From a virus, in the IMG/VR virus record IMGVR_UViG_3300006735_000171, positions 1 through 27,998 of that record: 27,998 nucleotides of DNA; one strand, 5' to 3'. The number at the start of each line of letters is the position of its first letter. Within the stretch, counting starts at the first letter, position 1. A program made the translations under genes and the position numbers. Shown here piece by piece: positions 5,971-14,616 of this stretch. The notes under the pieces are model-generated. The model was given only the letters and a program-made list of their open reading frames with translations. It searched no databases and was not told the origin of the DNA.

Positions 5971-6384
5971 TAAGCTAGATTGAATGGTGCAATATTAGAT
6001 AATACTAATAGACTTAATATTCCCACCATAGTATGGATAGATATATATATACATGCCCTTTGGCTCGTGGGGGTTTTGGCTTTGATCGGCTAGAAAATAA
6101 AAGATTAAAGGCCATTAATGGTTATTTTATAGAGTTTTTATTGATTAGTAATAGGTAGATAGTAGTAGCATTGATTAAAGGGCTAGAAAATATATATATG
6201 AGAGTGTGAGAGTACAACAACGTTTTTAATTTACAGAATTAGAGGTTAATTGTCTAATGGTAAAGGCTTAATAAATGATATGTTTATTGATCTATCTATA
6301 TATATGTGCTTATCATAACAAGCCATTAGGAGTTATTGGCGACTTTATTTATTATTAGACTAGACAATAAAACTAGACAAGAAA
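5971..6384. other. Non-coding region upstream of TerL with short repeats
   Basis: More than 400 bp without a convincing reading frame on either strand, between the TerL operon and the terminator of the next operon. It holds a 12-bp direct repeat GGCTAGAAAATA (6088-6099 and about 6180-6191). Each copy lies beside a copy of GATTAAAGG (about 6103-6111 and 6173-6181), with the order swapped. There is also a perfect palindrome CCATTAATGG at 6112-6121, and two CTAGACAA boxes near 6360-6380. Such gaps beside terL commonly hold promoters or packaging-recognition sites, but nothing here identifies which. Confidence 0.5.
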
Positions 6385-6420
6385 AAACCCCCATATATTT
6401 CTATATGAGGGCTTTTTTTT
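6382..6420 (-). terminator. Rho-independent terminator, probably bidirectional
   Basis: An almost perfect 10-bp stem (6388-6397 with 6402-6411, one C/A mismatch) with a TTTC loop is flanked by six A on the left and eight T on the right. It would terminate transcription in either direction. It lies 8 nt beyond the stop of the leftward 79-aa gene, so its main use is probably to end the early leftward operon before the TerL control region. Confidence 0.8.
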
Positions 6421-6428
6421 ACTTATTA

Positions 6429-6668
6429 TTATTGATCTAATACAATTTCTTGTACTAACCATTGATATGATAATTTTTCTGATTTATTCGCATGATCGCA
6501 GAATTTATCAGCTAAACTTTCATTAATAAAAATGTGATGTTTATCACAAAAAATATTATCAATGTTTAGTACTTCATTATCTTTATTTTTTGATAATGAT
6601 ACTTGTATTACTGCATAATAAACAGATTTTTCTTTACTATCTGTAAGATTTTTAATTTTATCTAACAT
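6429..6668 (-). CDS. Unknown 79-aa protein, possibly leaderless mRNA
   Basis: A soluble mixed alpha/beta protein (MLDKIKNLTDSKEKSVYYAV, with IFCDKHHIFIN at about 39-49 and a second Cys-His pair CDHANK) and no recognised family. It is the last gene before a strong terminator. It has its own promoter candidate, and the upstream gene is cut off by a terminator-like hairpin, so it appears to be a single-gene unit. There is no Shine-Dalgarno before the ATG at 6668. The two Cys/His pairs could bind metal, but the spacing matches no finger that I know. Confidence 0.7.
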   Translation of the reverse strand: MLDKIKNLTDSKEKSVYYAVIQVSLSKNKDNEVLNIDNIFCDKHHIFINESLADKFCDHANKSEKLSYQWLVQEIVLDQ

Positions 6669-6674
6669 ATGAGT

Positions 6675-6703
6675 ATATTAAGACAAAATATCTTGATTGT
6701 CAA
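6675..6703 (-). promoter_or_regulatory. Candidate promoter of the 79-aa gene, start site at the ATG
   Basis: On the minus strand, TTGACA (6703-6698), a 17-nt spacer and TAATAT (6680-6675; 4 of 6 matches). The expected start of transcription falls at about 6668, the first base of the ATG. With no ribosome site present, the arrangement predicts a leaderless message. Confidence 0.5.
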
Positions 6704-6713
6704 ACAAATATAT

Positions 6714-6749
6714 AAAAAAAAGGCCTATTCAATGAAAAATAAGTCTTTT
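6714..6749 (-). terminator. Candidate leftward terminator after the 62-aa gene
   Basis: The arms 6718-6729 and 6738-6749 form a 12-bp stem (one mismatch, one G-U) with an 8-nt loop. It is followed leftward by a run of T from 6717 to 6714. It lies between the 62-aa gene and the independent promoter of the 79-aa gene, where a terminator would be expected. Confidence 0.5.
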
Positions 6750-6766
6750 ATAGTTATATATGGTTA

Positions 6767-6955
6767 TTAAATTAAGTTATTATTTGCATATTCTGATAGT
6801 TTTGTAGATATATCAGAATAATTATTTTCATTGATATTTTTACATAGTTTTTTAGCCAATTCCTTAAAACTATCATCTTCATATAAAGTATTAAAATCGC
6901 ATGTTGTTTGTGTTTCTACATCATTTATTACACAATTTATTAAAAAGTTTTTCAT
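6767..6955 (-). CDS. Unknown 62-aa protein
   Basis: A small acidic protein, MKNFLINCVINDVETQTTCD and a helical C-terminus ending SEYANNNLI. No family is recognised. Its last 10 codons and stop are duplicated almost exactly (32 of 33 bases) as non-coding DNA at 7409-7441, and its stop codon runs into half of a repeated intergenic linker. These are signs of local duplication or gene exchange. The ribosome site is modest (AGAAGTAATAAGACA). It is part of the tiny-gene array transcribed leftward from about 8500. Confidence 0.65.
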   Translation of the reverse strand: MKNFLINCVINDVETQTTCDFNTLYEDDSFKELAKKLCKNINENNYSDISTKLSEYANNNLI

Positions 6956-6979
6956 TGTCTTATTACTTCTCTTATATGC

Positions 6980-7207
6980 TTATTTATTAGATTCTATTAT
7001 ATTTAATAGATATTTTTTAAATTCACTAACATTTTGGTTCATATCTGATCCATCTTTTATGCCATTGTATTTTATGACTTGAATCCATGTATCAAATGCT
7101 TTGTATGAAATTGGGATTTCATTCACATATTCATTTAAAAATATCCATTGGTTTTTATTTTCTAGTCTTTTTTTATTAGCTAGTTTTATGAATTCTATTG
7201 TGTTCAT
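6980..7207 (-). CDS. Unknown 75-aa protein
   Basis: A basic N-terminal helix (MNTIEFIKLANKKRLENKNQ) is followed by an aromatic-rich segment (WIFLNEYVNEIPISYKAFDTW) and a C-terminal helix. There are no membrane segments, cysteines or known motifs. The start is set by the repeated leader AGAGGATAAAACAATG shared with three neighbours. Probably an early, host-directed accessory protein by position only. Confidence 0.65.
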   Translation of the reverse strand: MNTIEFIKLANKKRLENKNQWIFLNEYVNEIPISYKAFDTWIQVIKYNGIKDGSDMNQNVSEFKKYLLNIIESNK

Positions 7208-7238
7208 TGTTTTATCCTCTGTTATATATGGTTATTTA
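7205..7238 (-). repeat. 34-bp stop-to-start linker repeat (copy 1; copy 2 at 7613-7646)
   Basis: An identical 34-bp sequence occurs at 7205-7238 and 7613-7646. It spans the stop codon of the upstream small gene, a CCATATATAAC segment, and the ribosome site plus start AGAGGATAAAACAATG of the next. Shorter copies of the start half lie at 7391-7406 and 7808-7824, and of the stop half at 6753-6768. It looks like a mobile or recombining linker between tiny genes. Confidence 0.85.
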
Positions 7239-7393
7239 ATTTTATTTTTACGATCTTTTAATACTTTTTTGGCGTTTTTCAATCGTAAGTTATCATCATC
7301 ACTATTTAAAAAGCTAGACATGGGAAGTTCTAAGGCTTTTATCATTGCTTTTAACTCCCATGTAGGCTTATTCTCTAATATTTTAATATTCAT
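7232..7393 (-). CDS. Unknown 53-aa protein of the tiny-gene array
   Basis: Translation from the ATG at 7393 gives MNIKILENKPTWELKAMIKA, an SDDDN segment and a basic C-terminus (KKVLKDRKNKIK). It is mostly helical, with no recognised family. It is bounded by the linker repeat at its stop and by the 16-bp start half of the linker at its ATG (AGAGGATAAAACA). The strict fit between two linker copies is the best evidence that it is real. Confidence 0.6.
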   Translation of the reverse strand: MNIKILENKPTWELKAMIKALELPMSSFLNSDDDNLRLKNAKKVLKDRKNKIK

Positions 7394-7408
7394 TGTTTTA
7401 TCCTCTAT

Positions 7409-7441
7409 TTATTAAATTAAGTTATTATTCGCATATTCTGA
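7409..7441 (-). repeat. Duplicated 3' end of the 62-aa gene (32/33 identity with 6764-6796)
   Basis: A 33-bp segment is nearly identical to the last codons and stop of the 62-aa gene at 6767. Here it is non-coding, lying between the stop of the 56-aa gene (7445) and the ATG at 7393. It is probably a leftover of a duplicated or replaced gene. Confidence 0.8.
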
Positions 7442-7444
7442 CTA

Positions 7445-7615
7445 TCATTTTATTGTTACCCTCACTCTTATTTGTTGTCTAGTCATTATGTTTTTAAAGT
7501 AATGACTGTTTAAAGGTTCGCTTGAATACATATACATATATTCATCTTTTAAATTTTCGTCTGTATGTTTATCGCATACATCAAAAACTTTTGTTATGTC
7601 TTTTATAATCTTCAT
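7445..7615 (-). CDS. Unknown 56-aa protein (array member)
   Basis: The product begins MKIIKDITKVFDVCDKHTDE, contains a Met/Tyr run (EYMYMYSSE) and ends basic (RQQIRVRVTIK). No family is recognised. The ATG at 7615 sits in linker copy 2 with the ribosome site AGAGGATAAAACA. It is the same length as two neighbours but not visibly homologous to them. It is followed by the vestigial 3' end of a 62-aa-like gene. Confidence 0.6.
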   Translation of the reverse strand: MKIIKDITKVFDVCDKHTDENLKDEYMYMYSSEPLNSHYFKNIMTRQQIRVRVTIK

Positions 7616-7639
7616 TGTTTTATCCTCTGTTATATATGG

Positions 7640-7810
7640 TTATTTATTATTCTCACTTAATGAAACACTTATTATGTTATTAAGTGGAATATCGTGCTTA
7701 TTCATTGCCTTGTGCATAGCAAAGAATTCACTGATAGCTGAATAATATGCTGTATGTATTTGTTTATCTGATAACCTCATTATTATTTTATATACATTAT
7801 CTTTTTTCAT
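7640..7810 (-). CDS. Unknown 56-aa protein (array member)
   Basis: A helical protein, MKKDNVYKIIMRLSDKQIHT followed by AYYSAISEFFAMHKAMNKHD and a short C-terminal segment. No known motif. The start lies in an ATGA-type overlap with the preceding gene and shares the leader AGAGGATAAAACAATG, whose bases also encode the C-terminus of the upstream protein. Its stop lies at the edge of linker copy 2. Confidence 0.6.
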   Translation of the reverse strand: MKKDNVYKIIMRLSDKQIHTAYYSAISEFFAMHKAMNKHDIPLNNIISVSLSENNK

Positions 7811-7977
7811 TGTTTTATCCTCTGCTTTCTTAAATGTCTCAATATTTTTATATCTCTATCGTATTTAACAAGATCAAATATTGGTGTTCTTGGCTTGTTT
7901 TTTCTGATCTCTCCTATTAGATATTGAATTGTTAGCTCAATATCTAATGGGCTATTAGGTTGTATTAATCTGCTCAT
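7807..7977 (-). CDS. Unknown 56-aa basic protein (array member)
   Basis: The product begins MSRLIQPNSPLDIELTIQYL and ends in a strongly basic helix (KYDRDIKILRHLRKQRIKQ). It starts in an ATGA overlap with the 113-aa gene with a good ribosome site (AGAGGAGAAAAGAGC), and ends overlapping the next start by 4 nt. The basic C-terminus could bind nucleic acid. No family is recognised. Confidence 0.6.
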   Translation of the reverse strand: MSRLIQPNSPLDIELTIQYLIGEIRKNKPRTPIFDLVKYDRDIKILRHLRKQRIKQ

Positions 7978-8315
7978 GCTCTTTTCTCCTCTAATAAATT
8001 AATATAATCATTTACAATATATTCGCCTACTATGTAGGTGTACATATTAACTACTTTTTCAGGGTCAGAAAAATCTGTATTTACTAAACCAAAGTGCATA
8101 TTTTCATAATCTGCAATAATATTGATTACATTAAATACTTCATCTGATAACCATTCTTTGGCTTGATATGTGCCTATAATGTAATAATCAGTATTAAAAG
8201 CATGATAATGCAAATCATCAATATTGTCTTTTATCCATTCTTTATCATGTTCCTCTATAAAGTCATAAAAATGCTTTTTTATTTCATCATGTTTATAATA
8301 GTTTTGTATCTTCAT
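7974..8315 (-). CDS. Unknown acidic 113-aa protein
   Basis: A Tyr/Asp-rich acidic protein, MKIQNYYKHDEIKKHFYDFI, with repeated aromatic-acidic segments (EHDKEWIKDN, DDLHYHAFNTDYYIIG) and no cysteine or membrane helix. Small acidic phage early proteins sometimes mimic DNA or inhibit host enzymes; this is only suggested by composition. The ribosome site GAGGTAAAAAAA is shared with the upstream membrane protein gene. Confidence 0.7.
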   Translation of the reverse strand: MKIQNYYKHDEIKKHFYDFIEEHDKEWIKDNIDDLHYHAFNTDYYIIGTYQAKEWLSDEVFNVINIIADYENMHFGLVNTDFSDPEKVVNMYTYIVGEYIVNDYINLLEEKRA

Positions 8316-8320
8316 TTTTT

Positions 8321-8482
8321 TTACCTCAAAAATATAATTAATAATATTGGTAGAATTAAAATTACCAATAACCCTTCAATAAATGCTTTTTCTCCATTAG
8401 TTACATGACACGTATATACAATATATGTATACATTAAACTTGCTATACAAAAGAGAAAAACAAAAAAATATAAGTCGATCAT
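8321..8482 (-). CDS. Small membrane protein with two helices (53 aa)
   Basis: Translation from the ATG at 8482 gives two hydrophobic stretches, about residues 4-25 (LYFFVFLFCIASLMYTYIVY) and 36-52 (FIEGLLVILILPILLIIF), joined by a short polar loop (HVTNGEK). The ribosome site is TTGAGGTAAAAAAAG. A hairpin-like two-helix protein encoded with early genes could be an exclusion or host-membrane factor; a holin is possible but would be out of place here. The membrane topology is clear, the role is not. Confidence 0.65.
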   Translation of the reverse strand: MIDLYFFVFLFCIASLMYTYIVYTCHVTNGEKAFIEGLLVILILPILLIIFLR

Positions 8483-10160: not shown

Positions 10161-10889
10161 TTAAAATAATCTAATTTTTTTCTTTTGATTGAAGTTAAAA
10201 ATATCTTCAATGTTTTTTAAATAATCATATTTATTGCTACAACATCTGAGTTTTGTCGGATATGCTGACAACTTTTGTATAAATTTTTTATGATTATAAT
10301 TTTTATTATGAAATAACTCTGACATAGCTAAGAAAAAAGATCTAGTTTTGTACCTGTCAAAATATGGTTTTACTTCCAACATTTTTTCAGCTATTTCTCT
10401 AGCTTTATTAATATCCTTTATTTCATATATGCCCTGTTTAAATTTAATTTGATCTATACCTTGATTGCTTTTAGTGTTACTTAACATTGTAAGAGAATCT
10501 ACAATAGAAAAACCATATTCATTAATAAATTTTTTAACTTGTATATATGTTTTATTTTTTGTTTTACAATAAGCATTTAAGTAATCTTTTAAAGACCATT
10601 GTTTTGAATTTGAGTTTAGAAGTTTAACATCATCTAATCTACAATCATTTATAACAACATAATTAATCGGATATTTTAATTTTTTACAAGATTCAATTCT
10701 GTGTTGTCCATCAATTATTTCAAACTTTTCATTGACAATAATAGGAATTGGCAAATATTTTTTTTCCATTGATTTTATAATTTTTTCTAAATGATTTTTG
10801 TCTATATCTCTATTGCCATTAAGTTTTTTGAACAAAGAATAGTCATGTGTTTCATAAATAGCTATACTTTCATTATTAACTTGTTTCAT
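10161..10889 (-). CDS. ParB/DGQHR-type nuclease-domain protein (242 aa)
   Basis: The N-terminal domain carries the ParB-like fold signature: a segment IDKNHLEKIIKSMEKKYLPI followed by PIIVNEKFEIIDGQHRIESC, with the DGQHR motif at residues 60-64. It continues as in ParB/sulfiredoxin-like proteins. The C-terminal part is helical and basic, and lacks an obvious centromere-binding module. In phages such proteins may be DNA-binding regulators, nucleases or modification partners; there is no ParA nearby, so plasmid-type partition is not supported. It overlaps the exonuclease gene by 14 nt, with the ribosome site TAAGGAGTATAAAT, so it belongs to the recombination operon. Confidence 0.75.
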   Translation of the reverse strand: MKQVNNESIAIYETHDYSLFKKLNGNRDIDKNHLEKIIKSMEKKYLPIPIIVNEKFEIIDGQHRIESCKKLKYPINYVVINDCRLDDVKLLNSNSKQWSLKDYLNAYCKTKNKTYIQVKKFINEYGFSIVDSLTMLSNTKSNQGIDQIKFKQGIYEIKDINKAREIAEKMLEVKPYFDRYKTRSFFLAMSELFHNKNYNHKKFIQKLSAYPTKLRCCSNKYDYLKNIEDIFNFNQKKKIRLF

Positions 10890-11529
10890 ATTTATACTCC
10901 TTAACTAATTTAATGCTTTCATCAATATCGCCTTGATATCTATCAGGTTTATCAACTAAGCCATTTGCTTTACCTTTAAGCAAACATTCTGCAAACTCAC
11001 TTAAATTGCTGATTAGGTAATTGATAAAATCTTGGTTATAGTCAACTTGCCATATTCTGCAAACTGTCGGTGTATAGTTTATTAAGTAAGTTTTCTCTAT
11101 TTTTTTACCCAAAGAAGATAAAATATGTTGCTGACCATATACTTGTGGCAACCAAAGTTTGTTGAACTCCTCATACTTATCTTTCATTGAGCATTTTACC
11201 TCGATCAAGTGAGTTTCATCTTGTGAAATACTATCAGGTGTTGTGGAAATGCTTACAGTTTCCTTGCCTTTAGGTAAGTTAAGCCAATTTTGAATAATGT
11301 AATTTTGCTGATCTTTGAGATAGTCTTTAGGTATCTGCTTAAAATGTTTTACATAAAAAGCTATACCCATTTTCTCATTAAAATTTCCATGAGCAACATA
11401 TTTCATCATGTGTCTTGGTATTTGTGGCTCTTTACCTTGCAACTGTAATTCCAACATTTCTTTTCTTGGTGTGTATTGACCAAAAATATAATTAGAAAAT
11501 TGACTACTTCTGAGATTTAGGTTTTTCAT
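10876..11529 (-). CDS. YqaJ-like PD-(D/E)XK exonuclease (217 aa)
   Basis: A predicted 5'-3' alkaline exonuclease that resects double-stranded ends for annealing by its partner. The motifs fall in order: S..S....G (8-17), an upstream Glu in HGNFNEKMG (48-55, E52), TPDSI with the acidic D99, the metal-binding core LIEVKCS (E110, K112), and WLPQVYGQQHIL (126-137) as the conserved Gln motif of lambda-exonuclease/YqaJ proteins. The length is normal. It overlaps the annealing-protein gene by 26 nt and has the ribosome site TTGGAGATGAAGA. The pairing is the standard two-component phage recombination system. Confidence 0.85.
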   Translation of the reverse strand: MKNLNLRSSQFSNYIFGQYTPRKEMLELQLQGKEPQIPRHMMKYVAHGNFNEKMGIAFYVKHFKQIPKDYLKDQQNYIIQNWLNLPKGKETVSISTTPDSISQDETHLIEVKCSMKDKYEEFNKLWLPQVYGQQHILSSLGKKIEKTYLINYTPTVCRIWQVDYNQDFINYLISNLSEFAECLLKGKANGLVDKPDRYQGDIDESIKLVKEYKYETS

Positions 11530-12043
11530 TCTTCATCTCCAATTTATCTATTAATATCAATGCTTTAGCTAATTGTTCCTTGCTTGTTTCATTTGGATTT
11601 TCCAACTCTAATTCTTCAGGTGTGCCTGATCCATTGTGGAAAACTGACATACCTAACCCAAAATATGCCATACATTTGACCATAGCACGTTGCATATTGT
11701 CTTGAATATCATCAGCAGTAGGATTTGATATAGCTGACCATTGACCTTTTTTGCTATAAACAGGATACCAACAGTGTTGGCTCAGATGGTCTATTTCTAT
11801 GTTACAATGCAACATTATAGTATCATCATTAAACTTCTCGCTAGGTAGCCAAACAACCCTATATTGAGGGTAAAAATGGCTCATAATTGCCCTAGCATAA
11901 TGCCACTCTATGTAATTACCAAATCTATCATCATATGTTTTTACATAAGGACTGACATCAACCTTGCTTAATGTTTCCCAAACCTCTTTATATGTTAGAG
12001 AACTTTTGAGTATTTCTTGTGGTATCATTTCAGGATTATTCAT
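11504..12043 (-). CDS. Single-strand annealing protein, Sak3-like (DUF1071)
   Basis: A 179-residue protein predicted to anneal complementary single strands for recombination-dependent replication and repair. The DUF1071 pattern is visible: an N-terminal W..L..VDVSPYV segment, YIEWHYARAIMSHFYPQYR (44-62, the L.W..AW-type motif), an IEI....H..YPV strand region (82-97), and DIQDNMQRAMVKCMAYFGLG (112-131), which matches the R..VK..A.FGLG signature ending this family. The C-terminus is a charged helix. It is the third gene in the leftward early operon, directly upstream of the exonuclease. The family assignment is by motif reading. Confidence 0.8.
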   Translation of the reverse strand: MNNPEMIPQEILKSSLTYKEVWETLSKVDVSPYVKTYDDRFGNYIEWHYARAIMSHFYPQYRVVWLPSEKFNDDTIMLHCNIEIDHLSQHCWYPVYSKKGQWSAISNPTADDIQDNMQRAMVKCMAYFGLGMSVFHNGSGTPEELELENPNETSKEQLAKALILIDKLEMKNEKPKSQK

Positions 12044-13676: not shown

Positions 13677-13697
13677 AAAACAGGAGAACATTATGAA
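13677..13697 (+). repeat. 21-bp identical leader repeat (second copy 13835-13855)
   Basis: The ribosome site and start region ACAGGAGAACATTATGAA, with three preceding A, is identical before the genes at 13693 and 13851. It is a second, unrelated example of a repeated stop-to-start linker in this genome. Confidence 0.8.
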
Positions 13698-13836
13698 ACT
13701 AACCGATCAAAGAAAAAAACAATTAGAGCAATATGACAATAGCCATATCTTTTATTTCAGAAACATTTATACAGAACAAGAGAAAAATTATATATGTAAA
13801 ATAAAGCCACAGTTCAAAATTGTATTTAAAAAATAA
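13693..13836 (+). CDS. Unknown basic 47-aa protein
   Basis: Translation from the ATG at 13693 gives MKLTDQRKKQLEQYDNSHIF followed by YFRNIYTEQEKNYICKIKPQ and a short basic end. It has an excellent ribosome site (CAGGAGAACATT) and is flanked on both sides by the 21-bp repeat. No family is recognised. Confidence 0.6.
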   Translation: MKLTDQRKKQLEQYDNSHIFYFRNIYTEQEKNYICKIKPQFKIVFKK

Positions 13837-13850
13837 AACAGGAGAACATT

Positions 13851-14150
13851 ATGAATATATTAAAAGTAAAAGACTTGGTTTATAAAGTGCTAGAAGAAAA
13901 CCCAATAGCTAGAGATCAAGATGATATACTTGTGGGCATGGTTTGGTATATTCAATTAAATAATATGGGATATCAAGGCGATAGGGATTTTATGACTATT
14001 TTGGGCATAGAGGAATTATCAAAATATGAATCTATAAGTAGATGTGCTAGGAAAATTAAAGAAGATAATCCTAGTTTACGAGGTAGCAATTACACCGAAA
14101 GACAACAAGAACAAACATCTGTAGTTAGACAGATCAGGAGTTTTAAATGA
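13851..14150 (+). CDS. Conserved phage early protein, unknown (99 aa)
   Basis: The N-terminal helix MNILKVKDLVYKVLEENPIARDQDDILVG is followed by a hydrophobic segment, and the C-terminus reads ESISRCARKIKEDNPSLRG. The pattern, a helix ending in ARDSDD/ARDQDD and a late SI.R.RRK..E..P.LRG motif, is shared by small proteins in early regions of many phages of different hosts, as I recall them, and is thought to bind DNA. The exact role is not established. The start lies in the repeated leader. Confidence 0.7.
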   Translation: MNILKVKDLVYKVLEENPIARDQDDILVGMVWYIQLNNMGYQGDRDFMTILGIEELSKYESISRCARKIKEDNPSLRGSNYTERQQEQTSVVRQIRSFK

Positions 14151-14341
14151 ATAAAGATTTTAAATGGAAAGAAGAAAGAATCAAAGAAATCAATCTATGG
14201 TCTAAAAAAAACAACAAGTCATGCTCAGATTCAAATCCATATTTTGAGGAAGTACAAGCAATTTACAGGTCAAAAGCAAAAACTTACAAGGATTTTTTGA
14301 ATACTGATTTGCATGTTTCGATTAAAAAACAAAGACATTGA
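14147..14341 (+). CDS. Unknown basic 64-aa protein
   Basis: A Lys/Ser/Asn-rich protein, MNKDFKWKEERIKEINLWSK, with a central Cys and an aromatic motif (NPYFEEVQAIYRSKAKTYKD). The ribosome site CAGGAGTTTTAA lies within the previous gene and the starts overlap as ATGA. It joins the HNH gene by a TTGA overlap. No family is recognised, but the coupling suggests a partner of the HNH protein. Confidence 0.65.
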   Translation: MNKDFKWKEERIKEINLWSKKNNKSCSDSNPYFEEVQAIYRSKAKTYKDFLNTDLHVSIKKQRH

Positions 14342-14616
14342 CGAAACCTAAAAAAGAAATTGTTAAACAATACAAAAAAATGATTGATTTCGGGTGTGTA
14401 GTTTGTAAAAGAAAGTATGGCGTTTATACTCAACCTTGCATACATCATTTTACAGGGGCAGGAATGGGATTGAAAAACAAAGAAAAGTTTATTCCTCTAT
14501 GTCATCATCATCATCAAGGACAAGAGGGTATTCATCATTTAGGTAATAAAATATGGGAAGATCGTTTCGGATTACAAGAAGAACTGCTACAATATTACAA
14601 AGAGCATGAAAGCTGA
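14338..14616 (+). CDS. Ref-like HNH nuclease (92 aa)
   Basis: From a TTG at 14338 that overlaps the previous TGA. It carries paired cysteines C20-x2-C23 (GCVVCKRKYG), then IHHF at 35-38 and IPLCHHHHQGQEGIHHLG (52-69) with C55 and H57-H59, and ends WEDRFGLQEEL. This order (CxxC, ..IHH, PLC..HH......H, W...FG.) matches the Ref/RefA-type HNH family, represented by the RecA-dependent nuclease of phage P1 that cuts DNA at displacement loops. The protein is shorter than P1 Ref because the basic N-terminal extension is missing. It could serve phage recombination or replication-fork processing together with Sak3-like and exonuclease proteins. Confidence 0.75.
   Translation: MTKPKKEIVKQYKKMIDFGCVVCKRKYGVYTQPCIHHFTGAGMGLKNKEKFIPLCHHHHQGQEGIHHLGNKIWEDRFGLQEELLQYYKEHES

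Follow-up and report, generated by a model that had tools for sequence, protein, structure and literature searches.

Integron cassettes are promoterless single genes with a shared 3′ element, and the PeSLs of T4-like phages were reportedly described as promoter–terminator cassettes by Arbiol in 2010 and by Comeau in 2014. The PeSL is a repeated intergenic promoter plus stem-loop, to which the shuffling of small accessory genes among related phages is attributed (PMC4503421). In Cluster K mycobacteriophages, the start-associated sequences (SAS/ESAS) are short asymmetric ribosome-site repeats right before unrelated non-structural genes, sometimes including the stop codon of the gene upstream, and their authors suggest that the repeat could be a target of homologous recombination (PMC3203893). 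Short conserved sequences also mark module edges in the phage boundary sequences and in the repeated gene tail of Island3 and Brujita, with an indel between two repeated gene ends (PMC3029335). Most phage mosaic joints have no identifiable shared sequence, hence the frequent appeal to illegitimate recombination (PMC3029335). In the locus presented here, the shared joint sequence is still visible, is repeated, and is tied to single-gene indels in genomes with 97–99% identical terminase genes. This makes the trading of small accessory genes between phages testable.

The locus lies in a phage called W below, known from IMGVR_UViG_3300006735_000171; “the window” is the whole stretch of 27,998 nt that was analysed, and L001, L002 and so on are contigs of relatives. 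It is best explained as an array of accessory-gene cassettes that closes an early phage operon at its 3′ end and immediately precedes the terminase gene. We best file it under homology-boundary module exchange, as an unusually clear variant with a stop-side tag, from an uncultured marine phage group: a conserved short border sequence stands between non-homologous genes, and relatives differ by modules with breakpoints in this border sequence. Functionally, the array can be likened to T4 PeSLs, lambdoid boundary sequences and the Cluster K sequences, with PeSLs and boundary sequences as the nearest functional parallels. At the sequence level, SAS/ESAS are the nearest parallel to the linker. In both, the repeat takes the ribosome-site position of several non-structural genes. 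However, the sequence differs (AGAGGATAAAACA instead of the SAS consensus GGGATAGGAGCCC), the W linker has no inverted-repeat extension, and the W group adds a conserved stop-side tag before terminators and documented cassette indels at the repeats. Compared with the boundary sequences and Island3/Brujita, the modules in W are single genes, arranged in series and joined by one common linker. Unlike the PeSL, the W linkers lack both promoter and stem-loop, and only the neighbouring c17 unit looks PeSL-like, with a terminator followed by a promoter. The array resembles integron cassettes in its promoterless single-gene units and shared 3′ element, but differs from integron arrays in that neither an integrase nor a folded attC-like site was found in the records, which may be incomplete.

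On the minus strand, to which all coordinates refer unless stated otherwise, the order in W is a Sak-type single-strand annealing protein (11504–12043; PF06378, 1e-13), a RecE-like recombination exonuclease (10876–11529; phrog_434, a weak match, E 0.0045), other early genes, c6, the array, a terminator, a separate c17 unit, and then the large terminase subunit and the portal. Sak and RecE-like genes are therefore present, as the annealing protein and exonuclease of the first-pass annotation would require. On the plus strand, 14338–14616 encodes a 92-aa protein with weak similarity to a RecA-dependent nuclease family (PF16786, 1.7e-5, just under the cut-off), possibly a further recombination protein.

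The run of small genes in W is c33, c8, c34, c110, c60, c111 and c16. Just upstream of the variable slots lies the conserved c6 (8321–8482), a 53-aa membrane-like protein whose last codons contain the ribosome site of the next gene (TTGAGGTAA). The slot before c8 is exchangeable and is occupied in W by c33 (7974–8315, 113 aa; phrog_10208, function unknown). In c8 (7807–7977, 56 aa), the linker is translated in frame as the terminal codons (RIKQ stop). Then follow the cassettes c34 (7640–7810, 56 aa), with orthologues in L001 and L022 next to different neighbours; c110 (7445–7615, 56 aa), missing from L001; c60 (7232–7393, 53 aa), with orthologues in L001 and L104; c111 (6980–7207, 75 aa), with an orthologue in L104 and none in L001; and c16 (6767–6955, 62 aa), which takes other positions in L011, L016 and L104. 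The operon closes with a rho-independent terminator (6709–6749; fold z −3.1, tag included), directly behind which lies a promoter-like TTGACA-N17-TAATAT (6675–6703). Terminator and promoter belong to the T4 PeSL-like terminator–promoter–gene–terminator unit of c17 (6382–6750), with the 79-aa c17 (6429–6668) followed by a strong terminator (6382–6419; fold z −5.5). The gene c17 is present in L011 and cleanly absent from the near-identical L112, and the break lies inside the promoter.

The linker, TAAATAACCATATATAACAGAGGATAAAACAATGAA, is 36 nt long and spans the stop region of one gene through the first codons of the next. It occurs in two exact copies, at the c60/c111 joint (7203–7238) and the c34/c110 joint (7611–7646), and none of 100 dinucleotide shuffles contained a match to its 34-nt core. 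The RBS/start half, AGAGGATAAAACAATG, has four exact copies, at 7205, 7391 (7391–7406, before c60), 7613 and 7808 (7808–7823, within the end of c8), far above the chance expectation of about one copy at three or fewer mismatches; its AGAGGATAAAACA-ATG stands in Shine–Dalgarno position. A third copy of the stop-side half, AATAACCATATATAAC, lies at 6753–6768, with the hairpin of the array terminator immediately after it. An exact double linker of 34 bp, the 36-nt repeat minus two bases, had been noted in the first pass along with partial copies at 6753, 7391 and 7808, and all of these were borne out. In addition, there is a decayed full linker, TAAGCATATAAGAGAAGTAATAAGACAATG, at the joint of the array's last two genes, c111 and c16 (6953–6982), and a c16 C-terminus remnant inside the gap 7394–7444. 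No structure or hairpin was found when the linker was folded as RNA, and no promoter-like site was called at 7203–7238 or 7611–7646. The same array is present on the separate contig L002, so an assembly accident is unlikely. Homogenisation of linkers within genomes was rejected, because identities are nearly equal within and between genomes (0.417 and 0.412, with 590 of 2000 permutations as high, under a fixed ATG alignment).

The remnant lies in the 51-nt gap that separates c110 from c60. It is the end of a c16-type gene (SEYANNNLI stop, 7407–7441) and matches the succession of c16, linker and next gene in L011 and that of c16 and c60 in L104. The same linker comes after c16 in L011, and L104 carries c16, c60 and c111 in this order. 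The simplest reading would be that c110 took the place of the front part of an internal c16, and that a complete c16 now stands at the array end. The junction of c110 with the remnant falls inside a gene and not at a linker, which speaks against linker exchange as the source of this joint.

In 843 kb of collected sequence, the stop-side tag TAACCATATATAA is matched 33 times in sense orientation and twice in antisense. It persists behind unrelated genes, and what follows it is either the ribosome site of the next gene or a terminator, the terminators being unrelated to one another: about 20 sense copies precede terminators, with at least six different hairpin sequences, 12 precede ribosome sites, and one (L054) looks like chance. 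These copies are not all independent, as some contigs are near-identical, and the terminator count includes seven copies that the script had labelled “other” and that have hairpins visible downstream; two of these seven and one labelled as terminator were folded. A wide spread of the tag beyond this phage group was rejected; other viral contigs carry the 16-mer at unrelated places. The linker DNA is translated as a protein tail in some genes, as RIKQ in c8 of W and as NYINRSVKQ or similar in L022 f47, in c8 of L025 and L068, and in L102 f226. After other genes, the same DNA lies past the stop and is non-coding, which indicates that DNA or RNA is conserved and not a peptide. In L017 (220–910), two tag-plus-terminator copies with near-identical hairpins (AAAAAGCCGATYC) flank genes of 78 and 52 aa, possibly a recent insertion at an operon end.

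Relatives were collected through the terminase (80) and others through searches with the linker, the tag and Sak. The genes flanking the array on both sides keep their order, whereas the order inside the array varies. Depending on the relative, c8 is followed by c34, c16, f41 or f32; c16 by a terminator, f30, c60 or an unrelated 108-aa gene; and c34 by c110, c60 or the end of the operon. Between c6 and c8, W has the 113-aa c33, L112 an unrelated 129-aa protein and L009 a GP88-like protein. Array content differs between genomes whose terminase genes are 97–99% identical in nucleotides: the close relatives W, L001, L009 and L011/L112 have different cassette sets, and L022 and L026, with 99.2% nucleotide-identical terminase genes, have no array gene in common. 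As expected in the first pass, cassettes differ among relatives around shared joints, and the identical gene content and order that would have spoken against this was not found. One limit is that the exact wording of the linker is shared among close relatives only; in more distant ones the RBS half changes and the stop-side tag remains. The tag at the c60/c111 joint of W is missing from the same joint in L104, so linkers can differ between the same gene pair. A DNA-level search of isolated phages gave no match for the array, and the nearest isolate by terminase, the marine Pelagibacter phage EXVC032P Baldr (61% amino acid identity), is too distant for array comparison. No bacterial genome contigs matching the linker pattern were found.

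The clearest case is the comparison of W with L001, whose terminase genes are 97.0% nucleotide identical. L001 lacks two blocks, c110 and c111 plus c16, and exactly one repeat copy remains at each place. Both operon differences are indels between direct repeats (AGAGGATAAAACAATG and AATAACCATATATAAC). In L001, a single linker joins c34 to c60, where W has linker, c110, remnant and linker; likewise, L001 passes from c60 to the terminator through one AATAACCATATATAAC, where W has two copies enclosing c111 and c16. The pattern fits gain or loss equally. Across 19 operons, 99 of 128 homology breakpoints (77%) are found no more than 25 nt away from a gene junction. Positions this close to a junction account for 25% of the operon, and random placement (5000 runs) gave a mean of 32 and a maximum of at most 53; BLAST ends are approximate and the genomes related, so that these events are not independent. 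Homology blocks typically cross the linker and end 3–28 nt inside the next, unrelated gene, and they also end in the RBS half.

Joint pairs with different genes on both sides have a 16-mer in common in 91 of 3854 cases (2.4%). Other starts that have a ribosome site in these phages give 4 of 2191 (0.18%), and gene interiors 0 of 8660. When the start codon and nearest bases are excluded (−30 to −5, 14-mers), the counts are 76 of 3854 joints and 2 of 2191 other starts. Joints of unrelated genes share sequence about 10–20 times more often than other gene starts, and a linker conserved only like other intergenic DNA, which would have told against the idea, was not observed.

Taken together, we consider it probable (roughly 0.68) that accessory cassettes are exchanged by homologous recombination at the short shared linkers, with the help of the phage's own Sak and exonuclease, a role we infer from the presence of the two genes. 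Each cassette is a small ORF that opens with a standard ribosome site and ATG, and in many of them a standard tag (TAACCATATATAAC) comes after the stop; gene ends are thereby homologous to other ends, and the same holds for starts. In the infected cell, single-strand annealing would delete cassettes when it joins two linkers of one genome, and would insert or swap them when it joins linkers of co-infecting genomes; reading frames, ribosome site and terminator would survive each exchange. Recombination at linkers, of the annealing or the RecA type, would explain why one copy is left as a scar, where the breakpoints lie, why the tag is retained before unrelated terminators and why the reading frame does not matter. 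Minimum efficient processing segments are 23–27 bp for Red-beta and 31–34 bp for RecA (PMC3945230). By these lengths the 36-bp linker is a workable substrate and the 16-bp halves are poor ones, and the repeats bounding the L001 indels are 16-nt halves, below the published minimum.

The main competitor, improbable in our estimate yet the strongest of those considered, takes the linker as a stop, an mRNA 3′ element and a strong ribosome site, with cassettes moving illegitimately and only gene-edge recombinants surviving. Illegitimate recombination is a usual account of phage mosaicism (PMC3029335), and selection for intact genes would likewise put breakpoints at gene edges. The RBS half, with AGAGGATAAAACA-ATG in Shine–Dalgarno position, is plausible as a translation signal alone. 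However, such long shared starts are absent from the other genes of the same phages, and one and the same stretch encodes protein in some cassettes and lies outside the gene in others. The two contexts of the tag, before terminators and before ribosome sites, which one expression role hardly covers, and the exactly one repeat copy left by the L001 indels speak against it as well. Also improbable is a stronger form of linker recombination, in which tag and start linker, kept as standard couplings, make up a dedicated acquisition platform, and the phage's own annealing recombinase loads and unloads single-gene counter-defence cassettes, with no integrase.

We give little credence to the tag being mainly an RNA element of the operon 3′ end (for processing, termination or regulator binding), spread by end insertion and with no role in crossover. 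It would fit the roughly 20 of 33 copies that directly precede terminators and the ability of the W tag to pair with bases behind the terminator's T-run, but it leaves aside the 12 copies that precede ribosome sites within the operon, in a linker that does not fold. Site-specific recombination, with the tag as the target of an integrase or resolvase, is very unlikely: one gene per cassette with a conserved 3′ element recalls the integron layout, yet the linker forms no hairpin, and the RBS half is also a place where blocks end. This route was rejected because neither a tyrosine recombinase (PF00589) nor a serine resolvase (PF00239) was found in the window and 12 related records, several of them 31–64 kb and possibly incomplete. 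Least credible of all are diverged tandem duplicates of one ancestral gene plus flanks, since the array proteins have no detectable similarity to each other and several cassettes have their own orthologues elsewhere, in other contexts, despite the tandem repeated linkers and the partial second c16 copy.

The same dissimilarity, together with gene sets that vary among relatives, supports the earlier description of the small proteins as unrelated and exchangeable cassettes. Orthologues differ between relatives mostly at third codon positions (220 of 414 differences), as expected of real genes. The Pfam searches of the W array proteins had no match above the cut-off other than the Sak protein, and the PHROGs search gave a clear match for c33 only, to families of unknown function. 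A clue to counter-defence cargo comes from L011, in which an ArdA antirestriction protein (L011:106–498; PF07275, 2e-16) stands directly before c8, in the place of c33 of W and at the point where this contig starts. With ArdA among the cargo, the linkers offer a route to unknown counter-defence genes between them in uncultured marine phages, and we infer that the cargo may serve host takeover or counter-defence.

Outside the array, a 21-nt sequence, AAAACAGGAGAACATTATGAA, occurs in two exact copies on the plus strand (13677–13697 and 13835–13855; 0.01 expected), before ORFs of 47 and 99 aa. With this as a second repeated start linker, a similar array may be present in the rightward early operon. 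The record of L039 (64,460 bases) contains two Sak genes of equal score 37.8 kb apart, which suggests a concatemeric assembly of a genome of about 37.8 kb; by this size, the window perhaps covers about three quarters of a genome.
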